DNA of 64,000 bases from Sphingomonas sp. M1-B02 (GTDB taxonomy: Bacteria > Pseudomonadota > Alphaproteobacteria > Sphingomonadales > Sphingomonadaceae): positions 62,001-126,000 of the forward strand of contig NZ_CP110679.1 of NCBI RefSeq assembly GCF_026167525.1. Reading direction: 5' to 3'. The notes beneath the pieces were generated by a model. That model was not told the origin of the DNA and ran no database searches. It saw only the letters and a program-made list of their open reading frames with translations. A program made the translations under genes and the position numbers. Shown here piece after piece: positions 5,321-33,116 of the stretch. Every line of letters begins with the position of its first letter. The first letter of the stretch is position 1.

Positions 5321-6670
5321 ATGACCGAAACCTCGCTCGTCTGGCTGCGCCAGGATCTTCGCCTGGCGGACCAGCCCGCTCTTGCCGCCGCCGCCGAGGC
5401 GGGGGTCGTGATCCCGGTCTTTGTTCTCGACGACGAGACGCCGGGACCGCGCTGCCGGATGGGCGGCGCGCAGCGCTGGTGGCTGCACGGGTCGCTCGAG
5501 CGGCTGGCTGTCGACCTCGAGGCGGTAGGATCGCGGCTGGTGCTGCGGCGGGGCAGGGCCGATGTCGAGCTGGTAAGGCTTGCCGAGGAGGTCGGTGCGA
5601 CGGGCATTCATGCGTTGCGCCATGCCGAGCCCTGGTGGCGCAAGATCGAGGAAGCGCTGGGCGACCGGCTGACGCTCCACGACGGCAACAATCTCGCACC
5701 GCTGCGCCATATCGTCACCGGCGGTGGCCAGCCCTATCGGATCTATTCGGCTTTCTGGCGCGCGCTGCAGATGCAGATGCCGCCCCCGCCGCCGCTGCCT
5801 GCGCCGACCCGTCTTGCCGCACCCGAGCGCTGGCCGCATTCGGATTCGCTCGACAGCTGGGCGCTGCGGCCGACGAGGCCCGATTGGGCGACCGGCTTCG
5901 ACATGGTGCCGGGTGAGGCCGAGGCGGCGCGGCGGCTGTCCGACTTCGTCGATCGGGTCGACGAATACGAAGTGGATCGCAACCTCCCCGGCTCGGAAGG
6001 TACGTCGCGCCTGTCGCCGCATCTCCACTTCGGCGAGATATCGCCGGCGACGGTCTGGCACGGCGTGGAAGGCCAGGCGCAGTCGGAAAAGTTTCGCAAG
6101 GAGCTCGCCTGGCGCGATTTCACCCAAGGGGTGACGCTGGCGCTGTCCGATTATGCGCGGACCAACGGCAACCGCAGATATGATGCGCTCGGCTGGCGCC
6201 AGGGCCCGGAAGCCGAGGCCGATCTGCGCGCCTGGCAGCAGGGGCGGACCGGCTATCCGATCGTCGATGCCGGGATGCGCCAGCTGTGGGCGACGGGCTG
6301 GATGCACAATCGCGTGCGGATGATCACCGCCTCCTTCCTGGTGAAGCATCTCCTCATCGACTGGCGGCGCGGCTGGGAATGGTATTGGGACACGTTGCTC
6401 GATGCCGACTACGGCAACAACAGCGTGAACTGGCAGTGGGTCGCCGGTACCGGAGTGGATGCCAACATGTTCAGCCGGATCATGGCGCCGCTCGTCCAGA
6501 GCGAGAAGTTCGATGCGGGGGACTATATCCGCGCCTGGGTGCCCGAGCTGGCCGGAGTGCGGGGCGCCGCGATCCACGATCCCGGCCCGGTGAACCGCTA
6601 TCCCGCCAAGATCGTCGAGCATCGCGAGGGACGCGAGCGGGCTTTGGCCGCGGCTCGGATGCTGCGTTAG
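5321..6670 (+). CDS. phrB: Deoxyribodipyrimidine photolyase, class I (CPD type)
   Basis: A 449-residue class I photolyase that splits cyclobutane pyrimidine dimers using blue light and FADH-. The N-terminal antenna domain starts LVWLRQDLRLADQPAL; the C-terminal FAD-binding domain has the family signatures RLSPHLHFGEISP, ELAWRDF, GYPIVDAGMRQLWATGWMHN and YGNNSVNWQWVAGTG. The length is normal for the family. It follows the FeS photolyase gene closely on the same strand, probably as one transcript, and converges on the antiporter operon with 3 bases between the stop codons. Confidence 0.95.
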   Translation: MTETSLVWLRQDLRLADQPALAAAAEAGVVIPVFVLDDETPGPRCRMGGAQRWWLHGSLERLAVDLEAVGSRLVLRRGRADVELVRLAEEVGATGIHALRHAEPWWRKIEEALGDRLTLHDGNNLAPLRHIVTGGGQPYRIYSAFWRALQMQMPPPPPLPAPTRLAAPERWPHSDSLDSWALRPTRPDWATGFDMVPGEAEAARRLSDFVDRVDEYEVDRNLPGSEGTSRLSPHLHFGEISPATVWHGVEGQAQSEKFRKELAWRDFTQGVTLALSDYARTNGNRRYDALGWRQGPEAEADLRAWQQGRTGYPIVDAGMRQLWATGWMHNRVRMITASFLVKHLLIDWRRGWEWYWDTLLDADYGNNSVNWQWVAGTGVDANMFSRIMAPLVQSEKFDAGDYIRAWVPELAGVRGAAIHDPGPVNRYPAKIVEHREGRERALAAARMLR

Positions 6671-6673
6671 GGG

Positions 6674-7087
6674 CTATTGCTCCGAGGTTGCGGCCGGGGT
6701 GTGGGGCTGCGCGCTCTGGAAGGTTGCCCAGTCGCTTGTCCCGCCCGGATGCGGCGGGTCGCCGGCCCTGCTTTCGGGCTCGTCGGACAGGCCTGCCCGG
6801 CGCCGATGCAAATGGACTTTGGCAATCATGTTCGCGGTGATCGGCGCGGTGATGAACAGGAACAGGGTGATCAGCAGCTCATGCGCCGACCAGGTGCCGC
6901 GCTCGAGCTGGAAGAACAGAACCGACGCGACCAGCATCGCGCCGAGCCCGAGGGTGGTCGCCTTGGTCGGCCCGTGCAGCCGCTCCATCACGCTCGACAG
7001 GCGCACGATCCCCCAGCTGCCGACGAGCGCGAAGGCGCCGCCGAGGACAATGAGCGCCGAGATGGCGATCTGGATGAGCAACTCCAT
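6674..7087 (-). CDS. mnhG: Na+/H+ antiporter subunit G
   Basis: Last gene of the Mrp/Mnh/Pha-type antiporter operon. The 137-residue protein has three hydrophobic segments in its first about 90 residues (IAISALIVLGGAFALVGSWG; then the typical RLHGPTKATTLG motif; then LLITLFLFITAPITANMIA) and a polar tail of about 45 residues. Subunit G is a small membrane subunit needed for assembly of the multi-subunit cation/proton antiporter in the inner membrane. It starts 3 bases after the stop of mnhF. Confidence 0.92.
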   Translation of the reverse strand: MELLIQIAISALIVLGGAFALVGSWGIVRLSSVMERLHGPTKATTLGLGAMLVASVLFFQLERGTWSAHELLITLFLFITAPITANMIAKVHLHRRRAGLSDEPESRAGDPPHPGGTSDWATFQSAQPHTPAATSEQ

Positions 7088-12805: not shown

Positions 12806-14950
12806 CTAAAAGCTGATCCGCGCCGCGACCCTGATGTCGCGGCCCGCAAGCGGCACGAAATCTTTGGTAAAGGAAGCATGCCGCCGCGCGTCGACGTCGA
12901 ACAGATTGTTCGCCGACAGGATCAGCACCGTCTCCTGGTGGTTCCCGAACGGATGCCAGGAGAGCGAGGCGTTGACGAGGGTGAAGTCCTCGGTCGGGGT
13001 CTCGAACGCGGCGACGCGATCCTGCCGCGTGACATGCTCGACCTCGACGCTGGTGCCGAACGGCCCGGCCTTGGCGGATAGGCCGCCGAGCACGCGCAGG
13101 GGAGGGATGCGGGGGACGGCGCTGCCATCTTCCAGCTCGGCGTTCACATAATCGCCGACCAGCCGGCCCTCGACGACGATCCCGCCTTCGGTGCGCAGCA
13201 AGGTCGCGGACAGCTCGCCCTCCAGCCCATAATAGCGCGCATTGGTCTGGTAATATTGGAACACGGGCAGCTCGTCGCGCTCGAGCGCGGTTTCATTCTC
13301 GTAGATATAATCGTCGAACCAGGTAGCGTAGCCGCTGAGCTGGAAGCGGATCGGTCCGGCCTTGCCGCGGGCATAGAGCTCCAGCCCCCAGCTCTTTTCG
13401 GTGCTGAAGTTCGGGTTGCCGACTTCATAGGCCTGGGTGGCGATATGCGGGCCGTTGGAGAACAGCTCCTCGCCCGAAGGCGCCCGCACTGCGCGCGATC
13501 CGGTGATGCCGATCTTCACGTCGGATGCCAGCGCGTAGGACAGTCCGAGTGCGCCGGAGAGAATGTCGAAATTGCGGGCAACCGAGCCGACCGGCGAATC
13601 CGCCTCGATCCCCAGCCGCACCTGATCCGAACGCACCGCGCTATGCTCGTAGCGGCCCGATGCTTCGAGCCCGATCCTGCCCAGCTCGATTTCCTGGAGC
13701 GTGAACAGGCCATATTGATCGGTGACGTTGGGCGGCACGAAGGCTTCCGCGCCAACCGCATCGAAGTCGCGGGTGAAGCCCTGGAGCCCGACCACGCCGC
13801 GCCAGCCGCCACGATCTGCCTGGACCAGCTCGAGCCGGCCTTCGAATGCCTGCGAATTGAAGACCGTGCCGACTTCGGCCCCTTCGAACTCGGTATGCTC
13901 ATAATCGGCATAGCCGGCGCGGAGGCGGATCTGATCGAGGAACGCGCCGCCGACATTGACCTGCGCGCGCAGGTCGGCGCGGAACTGCTGCATGCCGATC
14001 GTCACGTCGCCATGCTCATGCCCGGCTTCCTCCTCATGATGCGAGCCCATGCCGGGACGCTCGGCGACGCCATATTTGCTGTCATAGTAACCGGCGGAGA
14101 AGCCCAGGCTGCCGCCCTCGTTGATCAGCGCGATGCCGCCGCCCAGCGTATAGGTTTCGGTCGCACTGTTGGGCAGGCGTCCGCGTCCCTCGGCAAGCTC
14201 GATCGCCTCCGCGGCGTGATCCAGGTGACCTTCGGATGCTTCCTCCGCCGCGATCGTTCGCTGCTCGTCGCGCAAAGCGGGAGACAATAGATAGCCACCG
14301 ACGCGCAGGTCGCCGCTCTTGCGATAACTGCCGTCGCCGTGGATCACGATGTTCGGCGTCAGCGCCACGTCCAGCGCCGCACCCGCGCTGCGCTCCTCGG
14401 CGGCGGAGCCATAGGTGCCGATCGCGTCGATGTGGAAGCCCTTCTCCGGCACGCCGCGCGGAATGCGTCGATCGATCACGTTAACCGCGCCGCCGATCGC
14501 CTGGCTGCCGAACAGCAGCACCGCCGGCCCGCGCAGGATTTCGATCCGCTCGGCAGTGAGCGGATCGATCGTGACGGCATGATCGGCCGACGTGTTGGAG
14601 ACGTCGAGCGAGCCGAGGCCGTCGGTCAGCACCCGGATGCGCTCACCCTGAAAGCCGCGCAGCACCGGACGCGAGGCGCCGGGGCCGAAGGAAGTGGCGG
14701 AGACCCCGGGCTGGCGGGTGAGCGTCTCGCCGATCTGCGGGCGGATATCTTGAACCAGCTCATCGCCGGCCACCACCGACTTGCCCGCTAAAATGTCGAG
14801 ATCGCGGACATAGGGCGCGGTGATGACGATCTCCTCGTCGGTCTCCCCGTGTACCGCATTCGATTGGCGGGGCTGGGGCGGCGCGCTTTGGGCGAGAGCG
14901 GGGGCGGCCAAGCCGGTGCTGGCCAGGAGTATAGCTACGCGGTACAACAT
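12806..14950 (-). CDS. TonB-dependent receptor with histidine-rich loops (ZnuD-like?)
   Basis: Outer-membrane receptor of 714 residues. A signal peptide (LASTGLAAPALAQ) is followed by the plug domain (LTRQPGVSATSFG, RPVLRGFQGERIRVLTDGLG) and a beta-barrel ending in an aromatic F (RVAARISF). Two predicted outer loops are rich in His and acidic residues: one near residue 243 (EGHLDHAAE) and one near 307 (SHHEEEAGHEHGD). His/acidic loops of this kind are a feature of the zinc receptor ZnuD, so zinc or another metal is a reasonable guess for the ligand. The start at 14950 is chosen for the signal peptide and the AGGGAG site before it; a longer frame starts at 14998. Confidence 0.85.
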   Translation of the reverse strand: MLYRVAILLASTGLAAPALAQSAPPQPRQSNAVHGETDEEIVITAPYVRDLDILAGKSVVAGDELVQDIRPQIGETLTRQPGVSATSFGPGASRPVLRGFQGERIRVLTDGLGSLDVSNTSADHAVTIDPLTAERIEILRGPAVLLFGSQAIGGAVNVIDRRIPRGVPEKGFHIDAIGTYGSAAEERSAGAALDVALTPNIVIHGDGSYRKSGDLRVGGYLLSPALRDEQRTIAAEEASEGHLDHAAEAIELAEGRGRLPNSATETYTLGGGIALINEGGSLGFSAGYYDSKYGVAERPGMGSHHEEEAGHEHGDVTIGMQQFRADLRAQVNVGGAFLDQIRLRAGYADYEHTEFEGAEVGTVFNSQAFEGRLELVQADRGGWRGVVGLQGFTRDFDAVGAEAFVPPNVTDQYGLFTLQEIELGRIGLEASGRYEHSAVRSDQVRLGIEADSPVGSVARNFDILSGALGLSYALASDVKIGITGSRAVRAPSGEELFSNGPHIATQAYEVGNPNFSTEKSWGLELYARGKAGPIRFQLSGYATWFDDYIYENETALERDELPVFQYYQTNARYYGLEGELSATLLRTEGGIVVEGRLVGDYVNAELEDGSAVPRIPPLRVLGGLSAKAGPFGTSVEVEHVTRQDRVAAFETPTEDFTLVNASLSWHPFGNHQETVLILSANNLFDVDARRHASFTKDFVPLAGRDIRVAARISF

Positions 14951-20572: not shown

Positions 20573-22114
20573 TCAGGTGCCGGGCTGAATATAGGGTATG
20601 CGCGCGAACAGCTCGCGCTGCCATTTCCGGGGATCGTTCTCGATCCACGCGCGCGTGTCAAAGATCATCGTCGCGCGGCTGTCGAGCCGGTGGCGAGGCC
20701 AGGCGGGCAGGCCCCTGTGGTTGGGATCGCCGGTCTTGGCGAAGGCCACGAAACTGTCCTGCATCGCCTTGGAGGCCGCTCGGGCGTCCGCCGCGGTCCC
20801 GGTCTGCGAGCCGCTCGCTCCCAGCGTGCCGAACACCAGAGGGATGTCCATCGTGTGGAAAGCGCCCCGATTCGGCTCGGTCCGCGACGCGAAATCGAGC
20901 TGGTACACCCAGGCAGGGGCCCCGGCCTTTGCGCGCTCCTCCGCCTCGATCACCTGCCCGCGCCAGCTGCGTCCACAGGTTGTGGCGTCATAGAAAAGGT
21001 CGATGGGCGTCATGGTGGGAAATTTCGCCCGATATTCGGCGACCACCCATTCGGGCAGCACGTCGATCCGCAGCTCTGGCGCCATCCGCTCGGCCAGATT
21101 ATCCCAACCGAGCCCGCGCAGCTTGGCCGAATCCGGCGCGATGAATCCGCGCGTCTCGTCCCGCGTGTTGCCCAGCATCATCGGGATGTGCAGCGATTGC
21201 GGGTGCACATCGGGCCAGAAGGGGTGGCGGCTGAGCCAGCGCATGTCGAGGACCGGTCCGAAATAGACACCGCCGCCCAGGATGGGATCGGTTGCGTCGA
21301 GCGCGGCGACCAGCTTCTCGGCGGGCAGTTCGAGCACGGCGGACAGGTTGGTTTCCGGCACCCCCAGCCTTGCGAGATAGGCGCGGCTGCGTGCAGTCGC
21401 GTTGAGCGGTCCGGAGGCGGTGACCTGCTGCCCGCTCATTGTCGCAGCACGGTGGAACAGCCCCTTGGCGGCGGGCATCGCCATCATCGTGGCGATCTTG
21501 GCGCCGCCGCCCGACTGTCCGAAGACCATCACGCGAGACGGATCGCCGCCGAATGCGGTGATATTGTCGCGGATCCAGCGCAGCGCGAGGATCTGGTCGA
21601 GCTGGCCGGCATTGCCGCTGTCGGCGAGGCGCGGGTCGAGCCGCGCCAGATAGAGATAGCCGAACGCGTTGAGCCGGTGGTTTACGGTGACCACCACTAC
21701 GTCGCCGCGCGCGGCGAGCGCCTGCCCGTCGTTGAGCGGATCGGTGACGCTGCCGCTCGAATAAGCGCCGCCGTGGATGTAAACCATCACCGGCTTGGCG
21801 GCGCGGGGGTCGGCGTCGGCGGTCCAGATGTTGAGGAACAAACAGTCTTCGGACTGCGGCCCATAGCGGTCGCCCGATTGCGGCGAGACCGGGCCGAACG
21901 CGTCGGCGGGCAGGGTGGCGGCGGGGACGGGGCGGGGCGCCTGGAAGCGCTCGGCACGGCCATAGCGAATGCCGCGAAAGGCGCGGACGCCGCCCTCCAG
22001 GGTGCCCTGGAAGCTGCCCGCCGACGTTCTAACCGGCCCTTCGGCCTGTCCGAAGGCACGAGTGGCGACCAGCAATGCAGCGGAGCTGCCAATCAGCGTC
22101 CGCCGATCGATCAC
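20573..22114 (-). CDS. Exported carboxylesterase type B
   Basis: A 513-residue carboxylesterase/cholinesterase-family protein with an N-terminal signal (IDRRTLIGSSAALLVATRAF). Landmarks: SEDCLFLNIWT, the oxyanion stretch PVMVYIHGGAYSSGS, the nucleophile motif FGQSGGG and the C-terminal His in RGAFHTMDIPLVFG. Substrates are probably esters on uronate polysaccharides or aromatic esters; this is inferred from the operon. It starts with GTG overlapping the kduD stop (GTGA). An open frame that runs on upstream is only the shadow of kduD. Confidence 0.88.
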   Translation of the reverse strand: MIDRRTLIGSSAALLVATRAFGQAEGPVRTSAGSFQGTLEGGVRAFRGIRYGRAERFQAPRPVPAATLPADAFGPVSPQSGDRYGPQSEDCLFLNIWTADADPRAAKPVMVYIHGGAYSSGSVTDPLNDGQALAARGDVVVVTVNHRLNAFGYLYLARLDPRLADSGNAGQLDQILALRWIRDNITAFGGDPSRVMVFGQSGGGAKIATMMAMPAAKGLFHRAATMSGQQVTASGPLNATARSRAYLARLGVPETNLSAVLELPAEKLVAALDATDPILGGGVYFGPVLDMRWLSRHPFWPDVHPQSLHIPMMLGNTRDETRGFIAPDSAKLRGLGWDNLAERMAPELRIDVLPEWVVAEYRAKFPTMTPIDLFYDATTCGRSWRGQVIEAEERAKAGAPAWVYQLDFASRTEPNRGAFHTMDIPLVFGTLGASGSQTGTAADARAASKAMQDSFVAFAKTGDPNHRGLPAWPRHRLDSRATMIFDTRAWIENDPRKWQRELFARIPYIQPGT

Positions 22115-22866
22115 CGCGCGAGCCACCCGCCGTCGACCGCGAGGATATGGCCCTGGACGTAGTCGGAAGCCGAGGAGGCGAGGAACACGGCAGCGCCGCC
22201 CAGGTCGCTGGGGTCGCCCCAGCGGGCGGCGGGGATGCGCTCCAGGATCTGGCGGTTGCGGGTCTCGTCCGCCTGCAATGCCTCGGTGTTGTTGGTGGCG
22301 ATATAGCCGGGCGCGATCGCGTTGACGTTGATGCCCTTGGGTGCCCATTCGCAGGCGAGCAGCTTGGTGAGCCCCGCCACGCCCGACTTGGACGCCGTGT
22401 AAGAGGGCACGCGGATGCCGCCCTGGAAGCTTAGCATCGAGGCGATGTTGATGATCTTGCCCTTGCCTTGTCCCACCATGTGGCGGCCGGCGGCCTGGCA
22501 GAGGAAGAACAGGCTCTTCAGGTTGGTGTCGACCACCGCGTCCCAATCTTCCTCGCTGAAGTCGAGGCTGTCGTTGCGGCGGATGATGCCGGCATTGTTG
22601 ACCAGGATGTGCAGGCCCCCGAGCTTGTCCACGCTTTCGTCCACAATCCTGCCCACAGGCTCGATCGTCGACAGGTCGGCCGAGATCATCTCGGCCCGCA
22701 CGCCGAGCGCGCGGGCTTTCTCGACCGTCTCGGTCGCCGGCGAGCGGCCGACCGCGGCGATGCTGGCGCCGGCGGCGGCCAGCGCCAGCGCGATGCCCTG
22801 GCCGATGCCGGTGTTCGCACCGGTGACGATCGCGACCTTTCCGGTCAGGTCGAAGGGGTTGGTCAT
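22111..22866 (-). CDS. kduD: 2-dehydro-3-deoxy-D-gluconate 5-dehydrogenase, copy 1
   Basis: A 251-residue short-chain dehydrogenase/reductase. The NAD(P) motif is TGANTGIGQG, followed by NNAG and the catalytic YTASK (Y156, K160). KduD reduces the 2,5-diketo acid made by KduI to KDG. The protein is identical to the second copy at 31345-32100. The gene follows kduI after 5 bases and overlaps the esterase start. The final 64 bases differ from the other copy at about ten synonymous positions, whereas the rest looks base-identical. Confidence 0.93.
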   Translation of the reverse strand: MTNPFDLTGKVAIVTGANTGIGQGIALALAAAGASIAAVGRSPATETVEKARALGVRAEMISADLSTIEPVGRIVDESVDKLGGLHILVNNAGIIRRNDSLDFSEEDWDAVVDTNLKSLFFLCQAAGRHMVGQGKGKIINIASMLSFQGGIRVPSYTASKSGVAGLTKLLACEWAPKGINVNAIAPGYIATNNTEALQADETRNRQILERIPAARWGDPSDLGGAAVFLASSASDYVQGHILAVDGGWLAR

Positions 22867-23711
22867 GCGGGTCAGGCCAGCTGGCAGATATCGAGCACGT
22901 TCATGTCGGTATAATCCTGATTCTCGCCGGCCATCGCCCAGATGAAGGCATAGGCCTTGGTGCCCGAGCCCATATGCACCGACCAGGGCGGCGAGATCAC
23001 CGCTTCCTCATTGGCCATGACGATATGCCGCATCGCCTCGCCCTCGCCCATATAATGGAAGACGCGGTCGCTGGGGCCGTCGAGCTCGAAGTAGAAATAG
23101 ATCTCGCTGCGCCGCTCGTGGATGTGCGGGGGCATCGTGTTCCACACGCTGCCCGGCTTGAGTACGGTCAAGCCCATCACCAGCTGGGCTGAATCGCACA
23201 CGCCCGGGATCACCAGCTGGAAAATCGTCCGCTCGTTCGATTCCTCGAGGCTGCCGCGCTCGAGCGCATTGGCGTCGGCGATCGACAGTTTCCGCGTCTG
23301 GAACGCCTTATGCGCCGGGCACGACGCCAGATAGAAACGCGCGCCGTCCCCCGAAAACTGCACGTCCTTCGCGCCCATCGTCACATAGAGGCAATCCTTG
23401 TTGCCGAGCGTGAACGCCTCGCCGTCGACGGTCACAATGCCCTCGACCGACGACACATTGACCACCGCCAGCTCGCGCCGCTCGAGAAACGGATGCCCCG
23501 CCGCCGACGCCGGCTCGGTCTGGTCGGGCAGCTTCACGCTCCCCGAGCCCACCGCCACGCCGCCGATCACGAAGCGATCGGCATGCGTATAGTTGAGCAC
23601 GCACTCGCCCTCGCGAAACAGCCCGTCGATCAGATAGCGATCGCGCAGCTCGTCGTTCGAGACGCACTCCATCATGTCCGGATGCGTGGCGTAATAGGTG
23701 CGGTCGAACAT
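22174..23711 (-). repeat. Inverted duplicate kduI-kduD segment, copy 1
   Basis: This 1,538-bp stretch is the reverse complement of 30500-32037. Open frames in all six readings are the same in the two copies and the parts I compared by eye match base for base. The only mismatch I found is in codon 5 of kduI (ACC here, ACT in the other). Outside the segment, 5' flanks are unrelated; on the 3' side homology continues as diverged coding sequence to the kduD stop. Confidence 0.9.
22872..23711 (-). CDS. kduI: 5-dehydro-4-deoxy-D-glucuronate isomerase, copy 1
   Basis: A 279-residue cupin-type isomerase that converts 4-deoxy-L-threo-5-hexosulose uronate, the spontaneous product of unsaturated uronates, to the substrate of KduD. 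The zinc site is visible as HIHERRSE (H196, H198, E203) and the His of SVHMG (residue 246), matching the Escherichia coli enzyme closely. First gene of a minus-strand operon kduI-kduD-carboxylesterase-hydrolase. A LacI-type operator lies 67 bases upstream, shared with the divergent uxaA gene. The protein is identical to the copy at 30500. Confidence 0.94.
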
Positions 23712-23777
23712 CAGTCTCTCCCAAGGGAATCGCCGAATGCTGCCCTTAGCAGCAGCACCGGATCGCTTGCCATGCCG

Positions 23778-23791
23778 GGTAACCGGTGTCA
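23778..23791. promoter_or_regulatory. Probable LacI operator, copy 3 (kduI/uxaA divergent promoter)
   Basis: On the minus strand this reads TGACACCGGTTACC. It lies 67 bases before kduI and 105 bases before uxaA, which are transcribed in opposite directions, so one site could control both operons. The second kduI copy at 30500 has no such site. Confidence 0.7.
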
Positions 23792-23895
23792 GATGGCTTT
23801 GCAACGTTGCCGCCGCCGAAGCGGTTGCGCGATGCGAAGATACGACCCACATTCCAGCCAAGCGGCGGCACCCGGTCCGGCCGCGAAAGTGCCTG

Positions 23896-25377
23896 ATGAT
23901 CCCTGCGCTAAAAATCCACGCGAGCGACGACGTCGCCACTTTGTTAGAGGCCGCGCGGTCGTGTGATTCGGTCGAGATCGGCGCAGAGTCGATCCGTGCC
24001 GGAGCCGACATCCCCAAGGGCCACAAGATTGCGCTGCGCGACATCTCCGTGGGCGCCGAGATCCGCAAGTTCGGCTTTCCGATCGGCCGCGCCACTGCGC
24101 CGATCCGCGCCGGCGACCATGTCCACAGCCATAATCTCGCCACCGGCCTGAGCGGCACGCTCGACTATCGCTACGAACCTGCCGGCTCGCCTCGCGCCGC
24201 CGCAGCCGATGTGCGCAGCTTCCTGGGCTATGTTCGCGAGGATGGCCGGGTCGGCACGCGCAACGAGATCTGGGTCCTTCCCACCGTCGGCTGCGTCGGC
24301 CGCACCGCCGAGCGCATTGCTGCGCAGGCGGCCCCGCGCCATGTCGGCCAGGTCGACGGGGTCCATGCCTTTGCGCATCCCTATGGCTGCTCGCAGCTCG
24401 GCGACGACCTCGACGCAACCCGCAGTATGCTCGCAGCATTGGCCGCGCATCCCAATGCCGGCGGGGTTCTGCTGATCGGGCTGGGCTGCGAATCGAACCA
24501 GCTTTCACGCCTGCTCGAGGAACTGCCCGAGAGCGCGCGCGTCCACATCCGCACCGTGGTAGCGCAGAATTCGGCCGACGAGATGGCCGATAGCCTGGCC
24601 GCGGTGGCCGAGCTTGCCGAGATCGCGTCGCGCACCAAGCGCACGCCGGTCGGGCTCGATCGCTTGGTTCTCGGCGTGAAATGCGGCGGCTCGGACGGCT
24701 TTTCCGGGCTCACCGCCAATCCGCTGGTCGGGCGGATGAGCGACCTCGTCACCGCCGCCGGCGGGAGTGTCATCGTAACCGAAATCCCCGAAATCTTCGG
24801 CGCCGAGCAGATGCTGATGGATCGCGCCGAAAGCCGGCCGGTGTTCGATCAGGTCGTCGCAGTGGTGAACGACTTCAAAAGCTATTTCCTGAGCCATGGC
24901 GAGCCGGTTTCCGAAAACCCCTCCCCGGGCAATGTCGCCGGCGGCATCACCACGCTCGACGAGAAGTCGCTCGGCGCGGTGCAGAAGGCTGGCAGCGCGA
25001 CGCTTTCGGACGTCATCCGCTACGGCGCGCGCATCCGACGGACCGGGCTGACCCTGCTCGAAGCCCCGGGCAACGACGCGGTCTCGTCCACGGCGCTGGC
25101 GGCGGCGGGCGCGACCATGATCCTCTTCACCACCGGCCGCGGGACGCCGCTCGGCTTCCCGGTGCCCACGCTCAAGATCGCATCGAACAGCGAACTTGCC
25201 GCGCGCAAGCCCGGCTGGATCGACTATGACGCGGGACAGGTGCTGACCGAGGGCTTCGACGCCGCCGAGGAGTCGCTGATCGATCGGATCGTCGCGATCG
25301 CATCGGGCGCCGAGACCGCAGCCGAGCGCAATGGCGAGCGCGAGATCGCCTTCTGGAAACGTGGCGTCACGCTCTGA
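23896..25377 (+). CDS. uxaA: Altronate dehydratase
   Basis: A 493-residue UxaA-family enzyme that dehydrates D-altronate to KDG in the galacturonate branch of hexuronate catabolism. The N-terminal SAF domain (residues 1-90; [14 protein letters not shown]) is joined to the large catalytic domain with [44 protein letters not shown] and the C-terminal [19 protein letters not shown]. Both parts are in one chain of normal length. The ATG at 23896 is chosen because it matches the usual N-terminus; the frame runs open further upstream through the operator, which is not plausible coding sequence. Confidence 0.95.
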
Positions 25378-25426
25378 CGTCGCCGCGCTGAAAAGCGGCG
25401 CCATCCCCGCAGGCGGCAATTGCCAT

Positions 25427-25440
25427 TGACACCGGTTTCC
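25427..25440. promoter_or_regulatory. Probable LacI operator, copy 4
   Basis: TGACACCGGTTTCC between uxaA and the hydratase gene, 43 bases before the GTG start. It overlaps a TTGACA that could be the -35 box. Its presence inside what would otherwise be one operon indicates a separate, co-regulated promoter for the downstream genes. Confidence 0.7.
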
Positions 25441-25483
25441 CTTAAGCCACGACAAAACGAGCATAGCGAGAGGAAGGAGCCTG

Positions 25484-26275
25484 GTGGCATCCGTTCGAAC
25501 ATCCGATGAAACGCGCCTTATCGCCGAGGCGTTCGTCGCCGCGCGTCGCGAGAGTCGCGGCCTGCCCGATTTTCCGGGGGTGGTCCCGGCTACGCTAACC
25601 GAAGCCTATGCAGTGCAGGATCATGCGATTGCGATCGATGGTCGCACGATCGGCGGATGGAAGGTCGGCCGGATCAATCCCCCGATCGACGGTGTCGATC
25701 GCCTCGCCGGCCCGATCTTCACCGATGCCATCGTCGATGCCCGAGACGGGCTCGAAATGCCGATCTTCGCGGATGGCTTCGGCGCCGCGGAGGCGGAGTT
25801 CCTCCTGCGCTTCGGCGCGGCCCCGCCCACCGGCAAGCTGCGCTTCACCGAGTCGGAGGCCGCCGACCTGATCGACGCGGTCCATGTCGGGATCGAGATT
25901 GCGAGCTCCCCCTTCGCCGGGATCAATGATCATGGCGCGACCGTCACCGTCTCCGACTATGGCAATAATAACGGCCTCGTCATCGGCCCTGCGATCGCCG
26001 ACTGGCGCAGCGCGGACATCCGCCGCTGGCCGGTGGCGCTCGACATCAATGGTGAGCCGATCGGCGCGGCCACCGCGGAGACGATGCTCGACGGTCCCGT
26101 CGGCGCGGTACGCTTCCTGCTCGAGGCGCTGGCGGCGCGCGGCATCGCGATCCAGCCGGGCCAGTGGGTATCGAGCGGCGCGGTAACCGGGGTTCATCCG
26201 GTCAAGGTGGGCGATCGCGTCGCTACGCGGTTCGGCGACGGGCTGCGCGTCGATTGCGCTATCAGCGCCTCCTGA
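25484..26275 (+). CDS. 2-keto-4-pentenoate hydratase-like protein (FAH superfamily)
   Basis: A 263-residue protein of the MhpD/HpcG hydratase branch of the fumarylacetoacetate hydrolase superfamily: GWKVGRIN near residue 60, an acidic metal-site stretch GAAEAEFLLRFG near 95-110, VHVGIEIASSP, and the closing SSGAVTGVHPVKVGD. Such enzymes hydrate or decarboxylate 2-keto acids. In this context it may act on a keto-deoxy acid from uronate breakdown, but that is only inferred from position. It starts with GTG after a strong AGGAAGGAG site and has its own LacI-type operator. Confidence 0.85.
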   Translation: MASVRTSDETRLIAEAFVAARRESRGLPDFPGVVPATLTEAYAVQDHAIAIDGRTIGGWKVGRINPPIDGVDRLAGPIFTDAIVDARDGLEMPIFADGFGAAEAEFLLRFGAAPPTGKLRFTESEAADLIDAVHVGIEIASSPFAGINDHGATVTVSDYGNNNGLVIGPAIADWRSADIRRWPVALDINGEPIGAATAETMLDGPVGAVRFLLEALAARGIAIQPGQWVSSGAVTGVHPVKVGDRVATRFGDGLRVDCAISAS

Positions 26276-26297
26276 CGGGGCCCGGGATGGAGAGGTC

Positions 26298-26375
26298 ATG
26301 TCCGAAGCGACGTCCCTGAACGCCGCTCTCGCGAACGCCCGGGAAGAAGTGGGTACCGGGGGCCCGCCGCAATGA
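26298..26375 (+). CDS. Possible 25-residue leader peptide coupled to the DUF885 gene
   Basis: A short open frame (MSEATSLNAALANAREEV then a Gly/Pro-rich end) has a GGAGAGG site at a sensible distance, and its stop overlaps the ATG of the next gene as ATGA. This arrangement would couple translation of the two. The N-terminal words resemble the first helix of TPR proteins, so it could instead be the relic of a lost gene. It is too short for a family assignment. Confidence 0.4.
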   Translation: MSEATSLNAALANAREEVGTGGPPQ

Positions 26376-27637
26376 GTCTGTTGCGGCGCGATATGCTGCG
26401 CGGGATGAGCGCTGCGGCCGTTGCCGCCGCCGCACCCGCCTTCGCCCGCACTTCGGCCGACGATGCGTTGAAGATCGCGCTCGATTCGCTCGGCGCGCTG
26501 CCGGACTATCCGCAGCGGCTTGCCCGCCTCGCCGCCTTCGATACCGCCGCGCTGTCGTCTTCCGCGCGCATCGACTTGCTTACCGTGGTCCGCGCGCTCG
26601 AGATCGACGCCCGACTCGCCGATCTGGTCCCCGGCGGAAAGCGTGATGGACCCTATCGCCTGCCGGCCGGCGCGGCTCCCGGCGATGAGGCCTACGCCCT
26701 GCTTCTGGAACGGCATATCGGCGCGCCGAGCGATCCCGGGACGGCCCATGGTCGACTGGCTCGCGAAGCCGCGCGCCTGACGGCACGAGCCGACCGGCTG
26801 ATGCGCAGCCTGGGCCATGGCCGCGGCACTGTGGGCACACGCTATAAGGCGTTGTTCGCCGACCGTCGCCACCATTATCCCGACAGCGATTCGGGGCGCG
26901 ATGCGCTCGTCGCCGACATGAACCGCTGGCTCGATGCCGGACGTGCGCAGGTTGGCGCCCTGGTCGGGCCGCTGCTCCCACCAAGCAGCGACGTCTCGGT
27001 CCGCCGAATGACCCGCACCGAGGAGGCGGAGGGCAAGAGCGGCTATCGGCGCATGCCCGCCGCGGGGGCTTCGGGCGCCTATCTGGTCGATCTCAAACGC
27101 ATCGCCGATCGCCCGCGCTGGAGCCTGGAAAGCGTCGTCCATCATGAGACGCTGCCCGGACATATGGTCCAGCTGCCGATCGAAACCGCGGCCGGCGCAC
27201 ACCCGCTGCGGATCGCCTATCTGCCGGTGTTCTCCGAAGGCTGGGCGGTGCATGCCGAACAGATGATGGCCGATCATGGCACCTATCGGGGCAATCCGCT
27301 GGGTGAGTTGGGCCATATCCACTGGCTGCTGTTTCGCGTCGTGCGGGGGCTCGTCGACGTAGGCATCCATCACCGCCGCTGGAGCCTGGCGGCGGCCCGC
27401 GGGCAACTCGATATGCTCCAGGGGGTGCCGGCCTATTTCGCCGGGTTCGAATCCGACCTAGACCGGATTGCCCGCGATCCCGCGGTGCGCGCGGCAGAGG
27501 CGCTCCTATGGCTCGGCCTCGCCGATTTCACCCGCGGCCGCCGCGGCGCCTCGCTGCGCCTGGCGAATCGGGGAATTCTCGAACATGGCCGCAAGCCGCT
27601 GCGCCTGCTCGACCGAAATTTCGTCGGCGCGGCGTGA
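26372..27637 (+). CDS. Tat-exported DUF885 family protein (putative metallopeptidase-like)
   Basis: A 421-residue DUF885 protein. The N-terminus carries a twin-arginine type signal (LRRDMLRGMSAAAV, cleavage after AFA), so export in folded form is likely. The family's metal-binding motif is intact as HETLPGH at residues 258-264, with a downstream Glu in FSEGWAVHAEQM. It is somewhat shorter than typical DUF885 members, which often exceed 550 residues, and the missing part is in the N-terminal half. Its role in a uronate locus is unclear; it sits between the hydratase and transporter genes on the same strand. Confidence 0.85.
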   Translation: MSLLRRDMLRGMSAAAVAAAAPAFARTSADDALKIALDSLGALPDYPQRLARLAAFDTAALSSSARIDLLTVVRALEIDARLADLVPGGKRDGPYRLPAGAAPGDEAYALLLERHIGAPSDPGTAHGRLAREAARLTARADRLMRSLGHGRGTVGTRYKALFADRRHHYPDSDSGRDALVADMNRWLDAGRAQVGALVGPLLPPSSDVSVRRMTRTEEAEGKSGYRRMPAAGASGAYLVDLKRIADRPRWSLESVVHHETLPGHMVQLPIETAAGAHPLRIAYLPVFSEGWAVHAEQMMADHGTYRGNPLGELGHIHWLLFRVVRGLVDVGIHHRRWSLAAARGQLDMLQGVPAYFAGFESDLDRIARDPAVRAAEALLWLGLADFTRGRRGASLRLANRGILEHGRKPLRLLDRNFVGAA

Positions 27638-27744
27638 CGCGCGTCCGTCCGGTCCGGCCGTGCCTTTCATCCTGCGATGCTTGCCGTTACGACCGGGAAG
27701 GGCTGCGACCTTTGTATAACGCGGCAAATCTAGGGAGAGCTTGA

Positions 27745-29061
27745 ATGAGCGATACGCGAGCGGCGCCGGTTGCAGGCGTCCCCGAGCGTGTGGGACGTTA
27801 CCGCTGGATGATCGTGGGGCTGCTCTTCGTGGCGACCACGGTCAACTATATCGATCGCACCATGCTCGGCCTGCTCGCTCCCACGCTTGGCGCCGAGCTG
27901 AAGTGGAGCGAGAACGACTATGGTAACATCGTAACGGCGTTCCAGGCGGCCTATGCCTTCGGTTTCCTGCTCATGGGCTGGCTGATCGACCGGTTCGGTC
28001 CCAGGATCGGCTACTCGATTGCCATCACGGTTTGGACAATCGGCCATGTCGCACACGGCATGGCTTCGTCGGTACTGTCGTTCATGCTTGCTCGCGTCAT
28101 TCTGGGGCTCGGCGAGGCGGGACACTTTCCTTCCGTCGTGCGCGCCAGCAGCGAATGGTTTCCACAAAAGGAGCGCGCCTATGCCATCGGCTGGGTCAAC
28201 AGCGCCACGACGATCGGCGTGATCCTCACTGCGCCGACGATGTGGTTCTTCATGACCTGGCTCGGCCTCGGCTGGCGGGAGACCTTTATCTATACCGGCC
28301 TGGTCGGCGTGGTCCTGCTGGTGCTCTGGCTCAAGGTTTACAGCAACCCGCGCGAAAGCGGGAAGGTGACTCCTGGCGAGCTCGCCTGGATCGAGCATGA
28401 TCCGGCGGAAAAGATCGAACGTATCGGCTGGGCGAAGATCGTCACCAAGCGTGAGGCATGGGCGTTCGCGATCGGCAAGTTCCTCACCGATCCGGTCTGG
28501 TTTCTGATGCTCTTCTGGCTGCCCAAATATTTCGCCTCTACTTATGATGTCGACCTCAAGGTCGTCCTGCTGCCGATGATCATCATGTACCTATTGTCCG
28601 ACGCGGGCAGCATCCTCGGTGGCTGGACTTCGTCGAAGCTCATTCAGAAGGGCTATAGCGTCAATTTCGCGCGCAAGATCACCATGCTCGGCGCCGGCTG
28701 CTGCGTGCTGCCCTTGCTGTTCGTCAGCGGCATGCAGAATATGTGGCTCGCGATCGTGCTGATCGGTGTCGCCTTGGCCGGGCACCAGGCCTTCTCCTCG
28801 ACGATTCTGTCTATCCCGCCCGACATGTTCCCGAAGCGCGCGGTGGGATCGGTAATCGGCCTGGGTGGTTTCATGGGCGGCATCGGCGGAATGATCATGG
28901 CGAAGTCGACCGGCCTTGTGCTCGATGCGACGGACGGTAATTACACGATCATCTTCGCGGCCTGCACCACGGTCTATTTCCTCGCGGTGCTCGCCATCCA
29001 CCTGCTCAGCCCGCGGCTGGCGCCGGTTACCGACGACAAGATCGAGGCACGTCCCGCATGA
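27745..29061 (+). CDS. MFS hexuronate transporter (ExuT-like, anion:cation symporter family)
   Basis: A 438-residue inner-membrane transporter with 12 predicted helices. The NYIDRTMLGLLAP motif in helix 1, the loop WLIDRFGPRIGY between helices 2 and 3 and the GLGEAGHFPSVVRASSEWFP stretch mark the ACS family, which includes ExuT and related sugar-acid/H+ symporters. Next to uxaC, whose start overlaps its stop (ATGA), uptake of galacturonate or glucuronate is the best guess. A GGGAGAG site precedes the ATG. No LacI-type operator is seen in the 107 bases upstream. Confidence 0.92.
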   Translation: MSDTRAAPVAGVPERVGRYRWMIVGLLFVATTVNYIDRTMLGLLAPTLGAELKWSENDYGNIVTAFQAAYAFGFLLMGWLIDRFGPRIGYSIAITVWTIGHVAHGMASSVLSFMLARVILGLGEAGHFPSVVRASSEWFPQKERAYAIGWVNSATTIGVILTAPTMWFFMTWLGLGWRETFIYTGLVGVVLLVLWLKVYSNPRESGKVTPGELAWIEHDPAEKIERIGWAKIVTKREAWAFAIGKFLTDPVWFLMLFWLPKYFASTYDVDLKVVLLPMIIMYLLSDAGSILGGWTSSKLIQKGYSVNFARKITMLGAGCCVLPLLFVSGMQNMWLAIVLIGVALAGHQAFSSTILSIPPDMFPKRAVGSVIGLGGFMGGIGGMIMAKSTGLVLDATDGNYTIIFAACTTVYFLAVLAIHLLSPRLAPVTDDKIEARPA

Positions 29062-30470
29062 ATCGCCCGCTGAAGCTCGATCCGGACCGGCTCTTCCCGC
29101 CCGAGGAGCGCGCGCGTGCCATCGCGCGCACGCTCTACGGCGAAGTCGCCCGGCTACCGATCGTAAGCCCGCATGGGCATACGGACCCCAAATGGTTCTC
29201 GACCAACGCCAATTGGTCGAACGCTACCGAGCTGCTGCTGTCGCCCGATCATTATCTGTATCGGATGCTCTATTCGCAGGGGATCGCGCTCGACGATCTC
29301 TGCGTGCCGAGCTTGGCCGGAATGCCCGCCACCGATCCGCGCGCGGCGTGGCGGACGCTGGCGGAGAATTTCCATCTGTTCCGCGGCACGCCGTCGCGGA
29401 TGTGGCTCGACCATGTCTTCGTCGAGGTATTCGGATTCGCCGAGGCGCTCGATGGCTCGACCGCGGATCTTTATTACGACCGAATCAACGAGAAGTTGGC
29501 GAGCGACGCGTTCAAGCCGCGGGCCCTGTTCGATCGCTTCGGCATCGAATTTCTCGCCACCACCGAAGGCCCGCAGGACGATCTGTCGCCGCACCACGCG
29601 ATCCGGGAGTCGGGCTGGGGCGGCCGCGTCGTGACGACCTATCGTCCCGACGCGGTCATCGACGTCGAGCATGAACAGTTCGCCGGAGCGATGCGGATCT
29701 TCGCCGACAAGACCGGCGAGGACGTCTATTCGTGGGACGGCTATCTCGCCGCGCATCGCAAGCGCCGCGCCGATTTCCGGGCAGCGGGGGCGACCGCGAC
29801 CGACCATGGCCATCCGACCGCGGCGACCGCCAATCTCTCGCATGAAGAGGCCGAGCGGCTGTTCGCCACCATCCTCTCAGACGCCTGGACCCCCGCCGAC
29901 GCCGAGCAGTTCCGCGCGCAGATGCTCACCGAGATGGCGGCGATGTCGGTCGAGGACGGGATGGTCATGCAGATCCACCCCGGCTCGTTCCGCAATCACA
30001 ATGGCGGCCTGTTCGCCAGCCACGGGCGCGACAAGGGCGCGGACATCCCGATGCGCACCGATTATGTCCAGGGGCTCAAGCCCTTGCTCGATCGTTTCGG
30101 CACCAGCACCGAGCTTTCGATCATCCTCTTCACACTCGACGAAACCGTCTATTCGCGCGAACTGGCCCCCTTGGCAGGCCATTATCCCTGCCTCAAGCTG
30201 GGGCCCTCCTGGTGGTTTCACGACAGTCCGGAGGGCATGCGCCGCTTCCGCGAGATGACCACCGAGACCGCCGGCTTCTACAATACGGTCGGCTTCAACG
30301 ACGACACCCGCGCCTTCCTCTCGATCCCGGCCCGCCACGATGTCGCGCGCCGAGTCGATTGCGGTTTCCTGGCTCGCCTGGTCGCGGAGGGCCGTCTGCT
30401 CGACTGGGAAGCGGTTAAACTGGCCCACGAACTGACGAACGGCCTGGTCAAGCGCGCCTACAAGCTTTGA
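29058..30470 (+). CDS. uxaC: Glucuronate/galacturonate isomerase
   Basis: A 470-residue uronate isomerase of the amidohydrolase superfamily, the same length as the Escherichia coli enzyme. It converts D-glucuronate to fructuronate and D-galacturonate to tagaturonate. Landmarks: PIVSPHGHTDPKWF with the metal-binding HxH, FEFLATTEGPQDDLSPH-like stretch around residue 165-180, MVMQIHPGSFRNHN and the conserved WWFHDSPEGMRRF. Translationally coupled to the transporter gene. The next pathway enzyme, UxaB, is not found in the window. Confidence 0.95.
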   Translation: MNRPLKLDPDRLFPPEERARAIARTLYGEVARLPIVSPHGHTDPKWFSTNANWSNATELLLSPDHYLYRMLYSQGIALDDLCVPSLAGMPATDPRAAWRTLAENFHLFRGTPSRMWLDHVFVEVFGFAEALDGSTADLYYDRINEKLASDAFKPRALFDRFGIEFLATTEGPQDDLSPHHAIRESGWGGRVVTTYRPDAVIDVEHEQFAGAMRIFADKTGEDVYSWDGYLAAHRKRRADFRAAGATATDHGHPTAATANLSHEEAERLFATILSDAWTPADAEQFRAQMLTEMAAMSVEDGMVMQIHPGSFRNHNGGLFASHGRDKGADIPMRTDYVQGLKPLLDRFGTSTELSIILFTLDETVYSRELAPLAGHYPCLKLGPSWWFHDSPEGMRRFREMTTETAGFYNTVGFNDDTRAFLSIPARHDVARRVDCGFLARLVAEGRLLDWEAVKLAHELTNGLVKRAYKL

Positions 30471-30499
30471 GTTTCCCCATCCCAAATCCGGAGTAACCC

Positions 30500-31339
30500 A
30501 TGTTCGACCGCACTTATTACGCCACGCATCCGGACATGATGGAGTGCGTCTCGAACGACGAGCTGCGCGATCGCTATCTGATCGACGGGCTGTTTCGCGA
30601 GGGCGAGTGCGTGCTCAACTATACGCATGCCGATCGCTTCGTGATCGGCGGCGTGGCGGTGGGCTCGGGGAGCGTGAAGCTGCCCGACCAGACCGAGCCG
30701 GCGTCGGCGGCGGGGCATCCGTTTCTCGAGCGGCGCGAGCTGGCGGTGGTCAATGTGTCGTCGGTCGAGGGCATTGTGACCGTCGACGGCGAGGCGTTCA
30801 CGCTCGGCAACAAGGATTGCCTCTATGTGACGATGGGCGCGAAGGACGTGCAGTTTTCGGGGGACGGCGCGCGTTTCTATCTGGCGTCGTGCCCGGCGCA
30901 TAAGGCGTTCCAGACGCGGAAACTGTCGATCGCCGACGCCAATGCGCTCGAGCGCGGCAGCCTCGAGGAATCGAACGAGCGGACGATTTTCCAGCTGGTG
31001 ATCCCGGGCGTGTGCGATTCAGCCCAGCTGGTGATGGGCTTGACCGTACTCAAGCCGGGCAGCGTGTGGAACACGATGCCCCCGCACATCCACGAGCGGC
31101 GCAGCGAGATCTATTTCTACTTCGAGCTCGACGGCCCCAGCGACCGCGTCTTCCATTATATGGGCGAGGGCGAGGCGATGCGGCATATCGTCATGGCCAA
31201 TGAGGAAGCGGTGATCTCGCCGCCCTGGTCGGTGCATATGGGCTCGGGCACCAAGGCCTATGCCTTCATCTGGGCGATGGCCGGCGAGAATCAGGATTAT
31301 ACCGACATGAACGTGCTCGATATCTGCCAGCTGGCCTGA
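30500..31339 (+). CDS. kduI: 5-dehydro-4-deoxy-D-glucuronate isomerase, copy 2
   Basis: Identical in protein sequence to the copy at 22872-23711, including the zinc ligands H196, H198, E203 and H246. Here it is inside the plus-strand operon uxaC-kduI-kduD-kdgK, 29 bases after uxaC, with a GGAGTAACCC site before the ATG. It lacks the operator found before copy 1, so the two copies are probably expressed from different promoters. Confidence 0.94.
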
Positions 31340-32037
31340 CCCGCATGACCAACCCCTTCGACCTGACCGGAAAGGTCGCGATCGTCACCGGTGCGAACAC
31401 CGGCATCGGCCAGGGCATCGCGCTGGCGCTGGCCGCCGCCGGCGCCAGCATCGCCGCGGTCGGCCGCTCGCCGGCGACCGAGACGGTCGAGAAAGCCCGC
31501 GCGCTCGGCGTGCGGGCCGAGATGATCTCGGCCGACCTGTCGACGATCGAGCCTGTGGGCAGGATTGTGGACGAAAGCGTGGACAAGCTCGGGGGCCTGC
31601 ACATCCTGGTCAACAATGCCGGCATCATCCGCCGCAACGACAGCCTCGACTTCAGCGAGGAAGATTGGGACGCGGTGGTCGACACCAACCTGAAGAGCCT
31701 GTTCTTCCTCTGCCAGGCCGCCGGCCGCCACATGGTGGGACAAGGCAAGGGCAAGATCATCAACATCGCCTCGATGCTAAGCTTCCAGGGCGGCATCCGC
31801 GTGCCCTCTTACACGGCGTCCAAGTCGGGCGTGGCGGGGCTCACCAAGCTGCTCGCCTGCGAATGGGCACCCAAGGGCATCAACGTCAACGCGATCGCGC
31901 CCGGCTATATCGCCACCAACAACACCGAGGCATTGCAGGCGGACGAGACCCGCAACCGCCAGATCCTGGAGCGCATCCCCGCCGCCCGCTGGGGCGACCC
32001 CAGCGACCTGGGCGGCGCTGCCGTGTTCCTCGCCTCC
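30500..32037 (+). repeat. Inverted duplicate kduI-kduD segment, copy 2
   Basis: Reverse-complement partner of 22174-23711. The identity begins at the kduI start codon and ends at codon 231 of kduD, in the middle of coding sequence. The 6.8 kb between the two copies carries uxaA, the hydratase, DUF885, the transporter and uxaC, and could be inverted by recombination between the copies. Confidence 0.9.
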
Positions 32038-32100
32038 AGCGCCTCGGACTATGTCCAGGGCCATATCCTCGCGGTCGATGGCGGGTGGCTGGCACGATGA
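31345..32100 (+). CDS. kduD: 2-dehydro-3-deoxy-D-gluconate 5-dehydrogenase, copy 2
   Basis: Same 251-residue protein as the copy at 22111-22866 (TGANTGIGQG, YTASK at 156-160). It follows kduI after 5 bases and its stop overlaps the kdgK start as ATGA. Codon use in the last 21 codons differs from copy 1 (for example AGC against TCG, TAT against TAC) although the residues are the same. Confidence 0.93.
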   Translation: MTNPFDLTGKVAIVTGANTGIGQGIALALAAAGASIAAVGRSPATETVEKARALGVRAEMISADLSTIEPVGRIVDESVDKLGGLHILVNNAGIIRRNDSLDFSEEDWDAVVDTNLKSLFFLCQAAGRHMVGQGKGKIINIASMLSFQGGIRVPSYTASKSGVAGLTKLLACEWAPKGINVNAIAPGYIATNNTEALQADETRNRQILERIPAARWGDPSDLGGAAVFLASSASDYVQGHILAVDGGWLAR

Positions 32101-33116
32101 AGATGGATACGCGCCCGATCGCCTTTTTCGGCGAAGTCTTGCTGCGGCTGTCGCCCCCCGGGCGCGAACTGCTGTTTCAGACGCCTGCGCTGCAGATCCA
32201 TGTCGGCGGTGCGGAGGCGAATGTCGCCACCGGACTGGCCTGCCTGGGCCATGCGACGCGGATGGTGACTGCGGTTCCGGACAATCCGATGGGCCGCGCG
32301 GTGGTCGACGAACTGCGGCGGCGCGGCGTGGACGTTTCGGGCATCGCAGTCGAGGATGGGCGGCTAGGGCTTTACTTCCTCCAGCCAGGGGCGGGGCTGC
32401 GCGCCTCCGAAGTCATCTACGATCGCTCGCATTCGCTGTTCGCCGATCGTGCGGCCGACGCCTGGGATCTGGAGTCTGCGCTGGCGGGATGCGGGCGGCT
32501 GCACCTTTCGGGCATTACCCCGGCGCTGGGGCCCAATTCAGCCAATGCGGCGATCGCCGCGGCCGAGTTTGCGCGCTCGGGGGGCATGAAGGTATCGTTC
32601 GATGGCAATTACCGCGCGCGGCTGTGGGACGCGTGGGACAGCGATCCGCGGACCGTGCTCACCCAGCTCATCGGCCATGCCGACATCTTGTTCGGCAATC
32701 ATCGCGACATCTCGCTGCTGCTGGGCGAGACCTTTTCCGGCGATGGCGCGGATCGGCGGCGGGTGGCGGCAGAGGCGGCGTTCGCGGCCTTTCCGAACCT
32801 GCAACTGATCGCCTCGACCGCGCGGCATGTCGACGATGCCGACAGCCATCGTATTTCGGCGCGGGTCGATATGCGGGACGATGCCTATCAGACGCCCGAG
32901 GTGCTGGTGGCGGGGATCGTCGATCGGCTCGGGGCAGGGGACGCCTTTGCCGCGGGGGTGCTGCATGGCTTGCTGGAGGGCGGCGACGCGCGGGCGGCGG
33001 CGGAGGCGGGGCTTGCGCTCACCAGCCTCAAACATTCGCTGCCGGGCGACGCCAGCCTGTTCACCCGCGCCGATCTGGCCGCGTTCCATGCGGGCGGAAT
33101 GGACGTGCGGCGCTGA
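32097..33116 (+). CDS. kdgK: 2-keto-3-deoxygluconate kinase
   Basis: A 339-residue PfkB-family sugar kinase. Landmarks: FFGEVLLRLSPPG at the N-terminus, the glycine-rich HVGGAEANVATGLACLG, and the second PfkB signature DRLGAGDAFAAGVLHG with the catalytic Asp. KdgK phosphorylates KDG, the meeting point of the UxaA and KduD branches, to KDPG, which KDPG aldolase (not in this window) would cleave. The start codon overlaps the kduD stop. A longer open frame upstream is the shadow of kduD. Confidence 0.94.
   Translation: MKMDTRPIAFFGEVLLRLSPPGRELLFQTPALQIHVGGAEANVATGLACLGHATRMVTAVPDNPMGRAVVDELRRRGVDVSGIAVEDGRLGLYFLQPGAGLRASEVIYDRSHSLFADRAADAWDLESALAGCGRLHLSGITPALGPNSANAAIAAAEFARSGGMKVSFDGNYRARLWDAWDSDPRTVLTQLIGHADILFGNHRDISLLLGETFSGDGADRRRVAAEAAFAAFPNLQLIASTARHVDDADSHRISARVDMRDDAYQTPEVLVAGIVDRLGAGDAFAAGVLHGLLEGGDARAAAEAGLALTSLKHSLPGDASLFTRADLAAFHAGGMDVRR

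Follow-up and report, generated by a model that had tools for sequence, protein, structure and literature searches.

Introduction

That paired genes of bacteria undergo gene conversion is well established. A close known case is the tufA/tufB pair of Salmonella, which, in the passages of PMC5485169 and PMC8262849 cited here, consists of two near-identical genes, inversely oriented like the pair reported below, whose likeness is maintained by intragenic conversion that is confined to their region of identity. The tuf genes differ from this pair in that EF-Tu is encoded by a highly expressed core gene, whereas kduI-kduD is a catabolic operon, with one alike tract that runs across two genes and a second copy that is absent from many relatives. 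A broader precedent is the iSeeCE list of 26 prokaryotic genes with recurrent concerted evolution (e.g., tuf, amoCAB, psbA, Dxs, and tkt), which, as described in the cited part of PMC6053082, resemble kduI in having within-genome copies that are more alike than orthologues, together with synteny that reveals an older pair. The kduI-kduD copies differ from these genes in their patchy homogenization and in a copy number that varies between species, and neither kduI nor kduD is found in Tables 1 and 2 of that source, which hold the 26 genes.

Here we describe two opposed kduI-kduD copies in the window (the whole 64,000-nucleotide stretch of DNA that was analyzed), and we argue that an older pair has very probably (roughly 90%) undergone interlocus gene conversion, with about 1.5 kb being copied from one operon into the other. 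In the literature searched (most subscription papers lie outside its scope), kduI was not found together with gene conversion; titles and abstract openings on kduI in Sphingomonas, with the same scope, hold nothing on gene copies, and the titles of the matches listed in a looser search name no conversion of kduI. As a repeatedly homogenized gene, kduI (5-dehydro-4-deoxy-D-glucuronate isomerase) appears to be new, and we suggest this catabolic gene as an addition to the small set of repeatedly homogenized bacterial genes.

Results and Discussion

Two opposed kduI-kduD copies share an identical tract and differ in a short tail

The features of both loci are collected in Table 1. The carboxylesterase gene, whose GTG overlaps the stop codon of kduD A, served as the marker of the A locus in relatives, and the kdgK-like gene served as the marker of the B locus. 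The names uxaA, FAH-like, and kdgK were assigned by us or in a first-pass annotation of this DNA, with their NCBIfam matches lying below the cut-offs; the FAH-like protein had no match in Pfam.

Table 1. Features of the two kduI-kduD loci and their neighbors (positions in the window)
Feature	Position	Strand	Evidence
Carboxylesterase gene, directly 3' of kduD A	20573..22114	-	Pfam COesterase; synteny
kduD copy A	22111..22866	-	NCBIfam TIGR01832 kduD equivalog, 404 bits vs cut-off 338.85
Diverged kduD A tail, outside the tract	22111..22173	-	10/63 bases differ, all synonymous
Identical (putatively converted) tract, copy A	22174..23696	-	1,523 identical bases
kduI copy A (carboxylesterase-linked, adjoins uxaA intergenic region)	22872..23711	-	NCBIfam NF002091 equivalog, 373 bits vs cut-off 250; Pfam KduI
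kduI codon 5 mismatch (ACC in A), adjoins tract 5' end	23697..23697	-	Base comparison; same alleles in G101 (ACC on uxaA side, ACT on uxaC side)
GGTAACCGGTGTCAG, invariant element between the A gene (kduI or carboxylesterase) and uxaA	23778..23792	.	Identical in 10/10 aligned species
uxaA-like altronate/galactarate dehydratase, first gene of the intervening segment	23896..25377	+	Pfam GD_AH domains; NCBIfam galactarate dehydratase below cut-off
uxaC, glucuronate isomerase, directly 5' of kduI B	29058..30470	+	NCBIfam NF002794, 560 bits vs cut-off 387
kduI copy B (uxaC-linked)	30500..31339	+	Protein same as copy A
Identical (putatively converted) tract, copy B	30515..32037	+	Base-by-base comparison
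kduD copy B	31345..32100	+	Protein same as copy A
Diverged kduD B tail, outside the tract	32038..32100	+	Base comparison
kdgK-like sugar kinase, directly 3' of kduD B	32097..33116	+	Closest NCBIfam models below cut-offs (scored on 32103-33116); synteny

In a base-by-base comparison, 22174-23711 and 30500-32037 are reverse complements with one mismatch in 1,538 bp, at codon 5 of kduI (copy A, ACC; copy B, ACT), which is the count that the first-pass annotation had given. Over the 1,601 bp from the kduI ATG to the kduD stop, the copies differ at 11 positions (15, 1539, 1540, 1541, 1544, 1547, 1553, 1580, 1592, 1595, and 1598 from the kduI ATG), and the 1,523 bp at positions 16-1538 are identical. 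The same annotation had described a single sharp edge, as opposed to scattered differences, followed by about ten synonymous changes at the end of kduD; the 3' edge lies exactly where it had been placed, at 22173/22174 in copy A and at 32037/32038 in copy B, and the last 63 bp of kduD carry 10 mismatches in 8 of 21 codons, none of which alters the protein. The KduD proteins of A and B are the same over all 251 residues, as are the two KduI proteins. One serine pair in the tail is TCG versus AGC, and no single base change converts one silently into the other. At the other end, the 5' flanks, also taken to be unrelated in that annotation, have no relation past the kduI start codon; because codon 5 differs, the 5' edge of the tract may lie inside kduI and not at its start. 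An ungapped search with a seed of 16 found no other repeats of at least 60 bp in the 64-kb window.

Assuming even spacing, the hypergeometric p for finding 10 of the 11 mismatches within the final 63 bp is 4.6e-14. A fairer control is the distribution of differences between species: when copy B was compared with eight relatives, 72 of 1,551 kduI-kduD differences (4.6%) fell in the last 60 coding bases, and against this share the p value is 4.9e-13. With 10 differences between A and B, and a mean of 9 (range 3-13) between orthologous tails of different species among the same eight relatives, the divergence of the tail is, on these counts, ordinary and equal to that of orthologues between species. 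Scaling from the tail gives an expectation of ∼205 mismatches outside it, where one is observed and where the mean of the eight relatives is 185. A longest-run permutation on kduI alone yields p = 0.033 for the window pair, because only a single mismatch falls there, and a meaningful test has to take in the tail. The window shows one feature that interlocus gene conversion calls for, namely an identity tract with sharp edges in otherwise diverged homologous sequence.

kduI at the A site predates the identity of the copies

Relatives were taken from the matches listed in a KduI search of 201 genomes of the genus (125 matched), from the best 80 of 338 relatives in a KduI search of a named genome collection, and from the matches listed in a nucleotide search with the A locus, in which 196 of 295 genomes of the genus matched. 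G236 shares the layout of the window, less kduD at the A site: carboxylesterase(-), kduI(-), uxaA(+), FAH-like, DUF885, MFS, uxaC, kduI(+), kduD, and kdgK. In G101, the pieces seen in G236 are spread over three contigs, each broken off within kduI (carboxylesterase-kduI; kduI-uxaA...uxaC-kduI; and kduI-kduD-kdgK), with an ambiguous pairing of the outer contigs with the ends of the middle one. Since both genomes have kduI beside the carboxylesterase gene and uxaA, the kduI loci were paired before their identity arose. Neither genome has kduD at the A site, so that it is the diverged tail that argues for an old kduD there. The occurrence of lacI-kduI-kduD-carboxylesterase in other clusters of the genus (G175, G271, G067, G208, and G207) makes an old kduI-kduD-carboxylesterase operon plausible. 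Both the orthologue-like tail and the A-site kduI of G236 and G101 bear out the first-pass proposal that an older pair was overwritten by conversion that stopped in kduD.

Among the 11 group relatives in the matches listed, kduI is present at the A site in two (G236 and G101) and absent from eight (G041, G051, G088, G154, G182, G204, G227, and G242), in which the carboxylesterase gene and uxaA are adjacent with no kdu genes between them; in the eleventh, G111, contig ends interrupt the site. Its carboxylesterase and kduD contigs start with the same 77 bases, the kduI end included, and this genome probably also has an A-site kduI. All 10 aligned species (the window, G236, and G101 included; G088 and G111 left out) have a homologous intergenic sequence from uxaA to the A gene, with GGTAACCGGTGTCAG unchanged, an element that is operator-like by inference only. 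A tree of six neighboring genes (a quick method with SH-aLRT support only, in which G111, G004, G175, and G271 have under half of the columns) placed the window and G041 outside a 10-species group (support 100) that holds G236, G101, and G111. A-site kduI is scattered on this tree, for which several losses or gains must be assumed. In the kduI tree, the two window copies pair with each other, as do the two G236 copies, each with full SH-aLRT support.

The eight relatives whose A site is free of kdu genes are what a fresh inverted duplication would predict, in which the B kduI-kduD was recently copied into such an empty site. But a fresh copy would leave no homologous tail with 10 synonymous changes, and G236 and G101 have kduI at the very same site; we consider this alternative strongly disfavored and very improbable.

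A separate observation concerns G088 (L157), in which kduI, uxaC, and the FAH-like gene (5349-7042 and 13851-14638) each appear split into two matches, perhaps through sequencing errors of the assembly.

Alike stretches of different extent recur in related species

The two kduI copies of G236 are identical at 1-74 and 271-862, with all 13 of their mismatches falling within 75-270 (longest-run permutation, p = 0.0002); their identity runs 22 bases past the kduI stop, beyond which the flanks are unrelated. In both the window and G236, the copies are closer within the genome than to other genomes, which is a criterion used in PMC6053082. The copies of G101 differ at 15, 99, and 102, have no differences in 497-617, and have 22 in 618-840. 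Their alike stretch would span about 103-617, of which only 497-617 is readable, with the contigs ending within 103-496; the pattern suggests that 103-496 is identical between the copies as well. Three species (the window's, G236, and G101) thus each have a different alike stretch, and because those of G236 and G101 cover different ranges, conversion, as read from these stretches, has recurred in this cluster. An older pair is present at this site in at least three species (window, G236, and G101), where the criterion in PMC6053082 asks for at least five together with synteny. With one locus that has a different alike stretch in each of three related species, tract length, direction, and gene choice become testable.

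G101 matches the window at kduI codon 5, where its uxaA-side copy reads ACC and its uxaC-side copy ACT. This bears on a one-ended alternative, in which there was no more than kduD (or the end of it) at the A site, and recombination ran from kduD through kduI until it ended, without homology, at the start codon. The match between the window copies, codon 5 apart, does stop exactly at the kduI ATG, with unrelated flanks beyond. A difference at codon 5 is, however, what one expects of an A site that already had a kduI start of its own, and the A-site kduI of G101 has the same ACC/ACT difference, although at a single site chance may produce this; we regard one-ended copying as very unlikely.

At kduI positions 99 and 102, G236 (L149) and G101 (L167) both differ between A and B with the same two alleles on opposite sides, which are perhaps old differences moved between loci, or perhaps due to chance.

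A model for interlocus gene conversion

Under interlocus gene conversion, the window would have started with two old opposed kduI-kduD operons: operon A, starting at the uxaA intergenic region and followed by the carboxylesterase gene, and operon B, located after uxaC and before kdgK. Homologous recombination, presumably of the RecA type, would have copied a continuous stretch of ∼1.5 kb between them, which would stop right after codon 5 of kduI at its 5' edge and 63 bp short of the kduD end at its 3' edge, and would leave the old diverged tail outside. The transfer would have been non-reciprocal, in a single event for the whole tract, with the direction from A to B being slightly favored. The model draws on the tract of identity and its edges, on the divergence of the tail, and on the A-site kduI genes of two other species with alike stretches of their own, and a continuous tract bounded within homologous genes is the expected product of recombinational repair between repeats.

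In the cited passages of PMC5485169, conversion of tuf in Salmonella starts anywhere in the gene and proceeds with a processivity of ∼0.998 per base, as estimated from nearly identical genes in strains without mismatch repair, and mismatch repair shortens the tracts. With 0.998 per base, our formula puts 19% of tracts at 1,523 bp or longer; a tract of 1.5 kb would fit this processivity, with 19% being an upper view for a mismatch-repair cell with more diverged copies. Copies that are roughly 13% diverged should recombine poorly. As this is the divergence that the tail implies, earlier rounds of conversion may have kept A and B closer than the tail suggests. Further points count against conversion: with its 63 bp, the tail does not suffice for placing A or B in a phylogeny, kduD is missing from the A site of G236 and G101, and the patchy A-site kduI (present in 2/11 and absent from 8/11) needs repeated loss or gain.

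That the assembler or polishing made the second copy or its identity is barely credible: several relatives' assemblies do break inside the copies, but such breaks are an effect of near-identical copies, and the present genome is one contig of 3,605,070 bases, in which the copies have different flanks and preserve their tail and codon 5 differences.

Direction of the transfer

Both window copies have 5 bp between kduI and kduD, where the B loci of 10 group relatives have 102-160 bp. In its simplest interpretation, this contrast hints at transfer from A to B, in which B would have received the compact junction of A, and it weakly favors the carboxylesterase-linked copy as the donor. Short gaps are also frequent in many uxaC-linked loci of other sphingomonads, so the gap serves as a hint to the donor and nothing firmer, and a deletion in B followed by copying from B to A accounts for it equally well. 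Two further approaches were set aside. Third-position distances of the tract to relatives carried no signal on the donor, and assignment of the tails to an A-type or B-type lineage by identity over 60 bases gave no decision from the matches obtained (B nearest to G154, 57/60; A nearest to G051 and G227, 54/60).

Many sphingomonads (e.g., L149, L009, and L013) have a palindromic GC-rich element (CCCTCCCGC ... GCGGGAGGG) in the kduI-kduD gap; it is frequent in the 102-160 bp gaps of relatives and absent from the 5-bp gap in the window.

kduI pairs in other genomes

We compared 20 genomes with two close full-length kduI copies each, leaving out genomes with a more distant second copy (e.g., G105 and G141) or with broken copies. 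In 12 of the 20, the copies were nearer to each other than to the kduI of any other genome in the set; one genome (G058) gave a tie, and in seven (G024, G071, G098, G140, AS12, nzgw535, and PP-CE-1A-559) the copies were less close, with the nearest kduI of another genome being 3.5-7.3% away. The kduI tree grouped the pairs of the window, G236, G031, G018, G047, G146, G160, QA11, AP50, D43FB, and Ant17 as sisters and did not resolve those of G024, G058, G071, G098, G140, AS12, and nzgw535 as such.

Among the 13 genomes with both kduD copies, kduI was less diverged than kduD in 12 (the exception being nzgw535), with a gap that is small in several (e.g., 6.8% vs 6.9% in G071), and kduI is the more conserved gene in any case. 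The clearest cases are G140 (kduI 8.7%, kduD 21.9%) and G018 (kduI 5.1%, kduD 18.6%); on a tree, the kduD copies of G140 fall in different groups and those of G018 are not sisters. The copies of G096 share kduI 13-107 and 767-861, with the middle missing, and their kduD neighbors are unlike (84% and 77% to the window). Through their unlike kduD neighbors, G096, G140, and G018 point the same way as the window. For many other pairs, the longest-run permutation on kduI alone was not significant, and the two-copy cases beyond the window, G236, and G101 are candidates for conversion, for which recent duplication is to be weighed as well.

Contig breaks inside kduI or kduI-kduD occur in six assemblies (G101, G111, G112, G096, G092, and G085); the ends that were compared are shared, as expected of near-identical copies. 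Two warnings follow from these pairs: the history of species or of loci need not be mirrored in kduI trees of sphingomonads, and kduI copies can break up short-read assemblies.

Two further arrangements were noted. A 13,279 bp contig of G112 (L173, G112:C114) ends on both sides in facing kduI 3' ends and so represents a convergent, not a divergent, pair. The host genome of the window has a third kduI outside the window (G000:C1:1580024-1580863; L166), with 81% protein identity to the pair; it lies apart from the pair in the kduI tree, and no kduD was found alongside it within 18 kb.

Orientation of the 6.8 kb segment

The first-pass annotation had also raised the possibility that the opposed copies flip the 6.8 kb between them. 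This is possible: like the inverted repeats in the cited passages of PMC8262849, the arms in the window are opposed, 1.5 kb long, and 6.8 kb apart, and could flip the segment. Actual flipping found no support: the window and G236, the only two genomes able to show it, have the same orientation. The contigs of G101 and G111 end in the repeat, where the orientation of the segment is not readable. Inverted cassettes in Salmonella gave inversions in 5/59 (8%) of selected recombinants, as reported in the cited part of PMC8262849, and by this analogy the 6.8 kb segment may flip at some rate. It is a long shot that the opposed arms form a standing switch, in which conversion would keep them identical, crossover would flip the 6.8 kb, and the carboxylesterase and kdgK operons would swap upstream control. 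Such a switch, if true, would set a promoter element on the uxaA side against read-through from uxaC and so provide two expression states for uronate use.

Within the segment, the MFS transporter at 27745-29061 is just 47-50% identical to the transporter in the same place in the close relatives compared, and 83% identical to a Sphingomonas soli (L085) transporter that lies between the FAH-like gene and uxaC; by these identities, it looks like a replacement in place.
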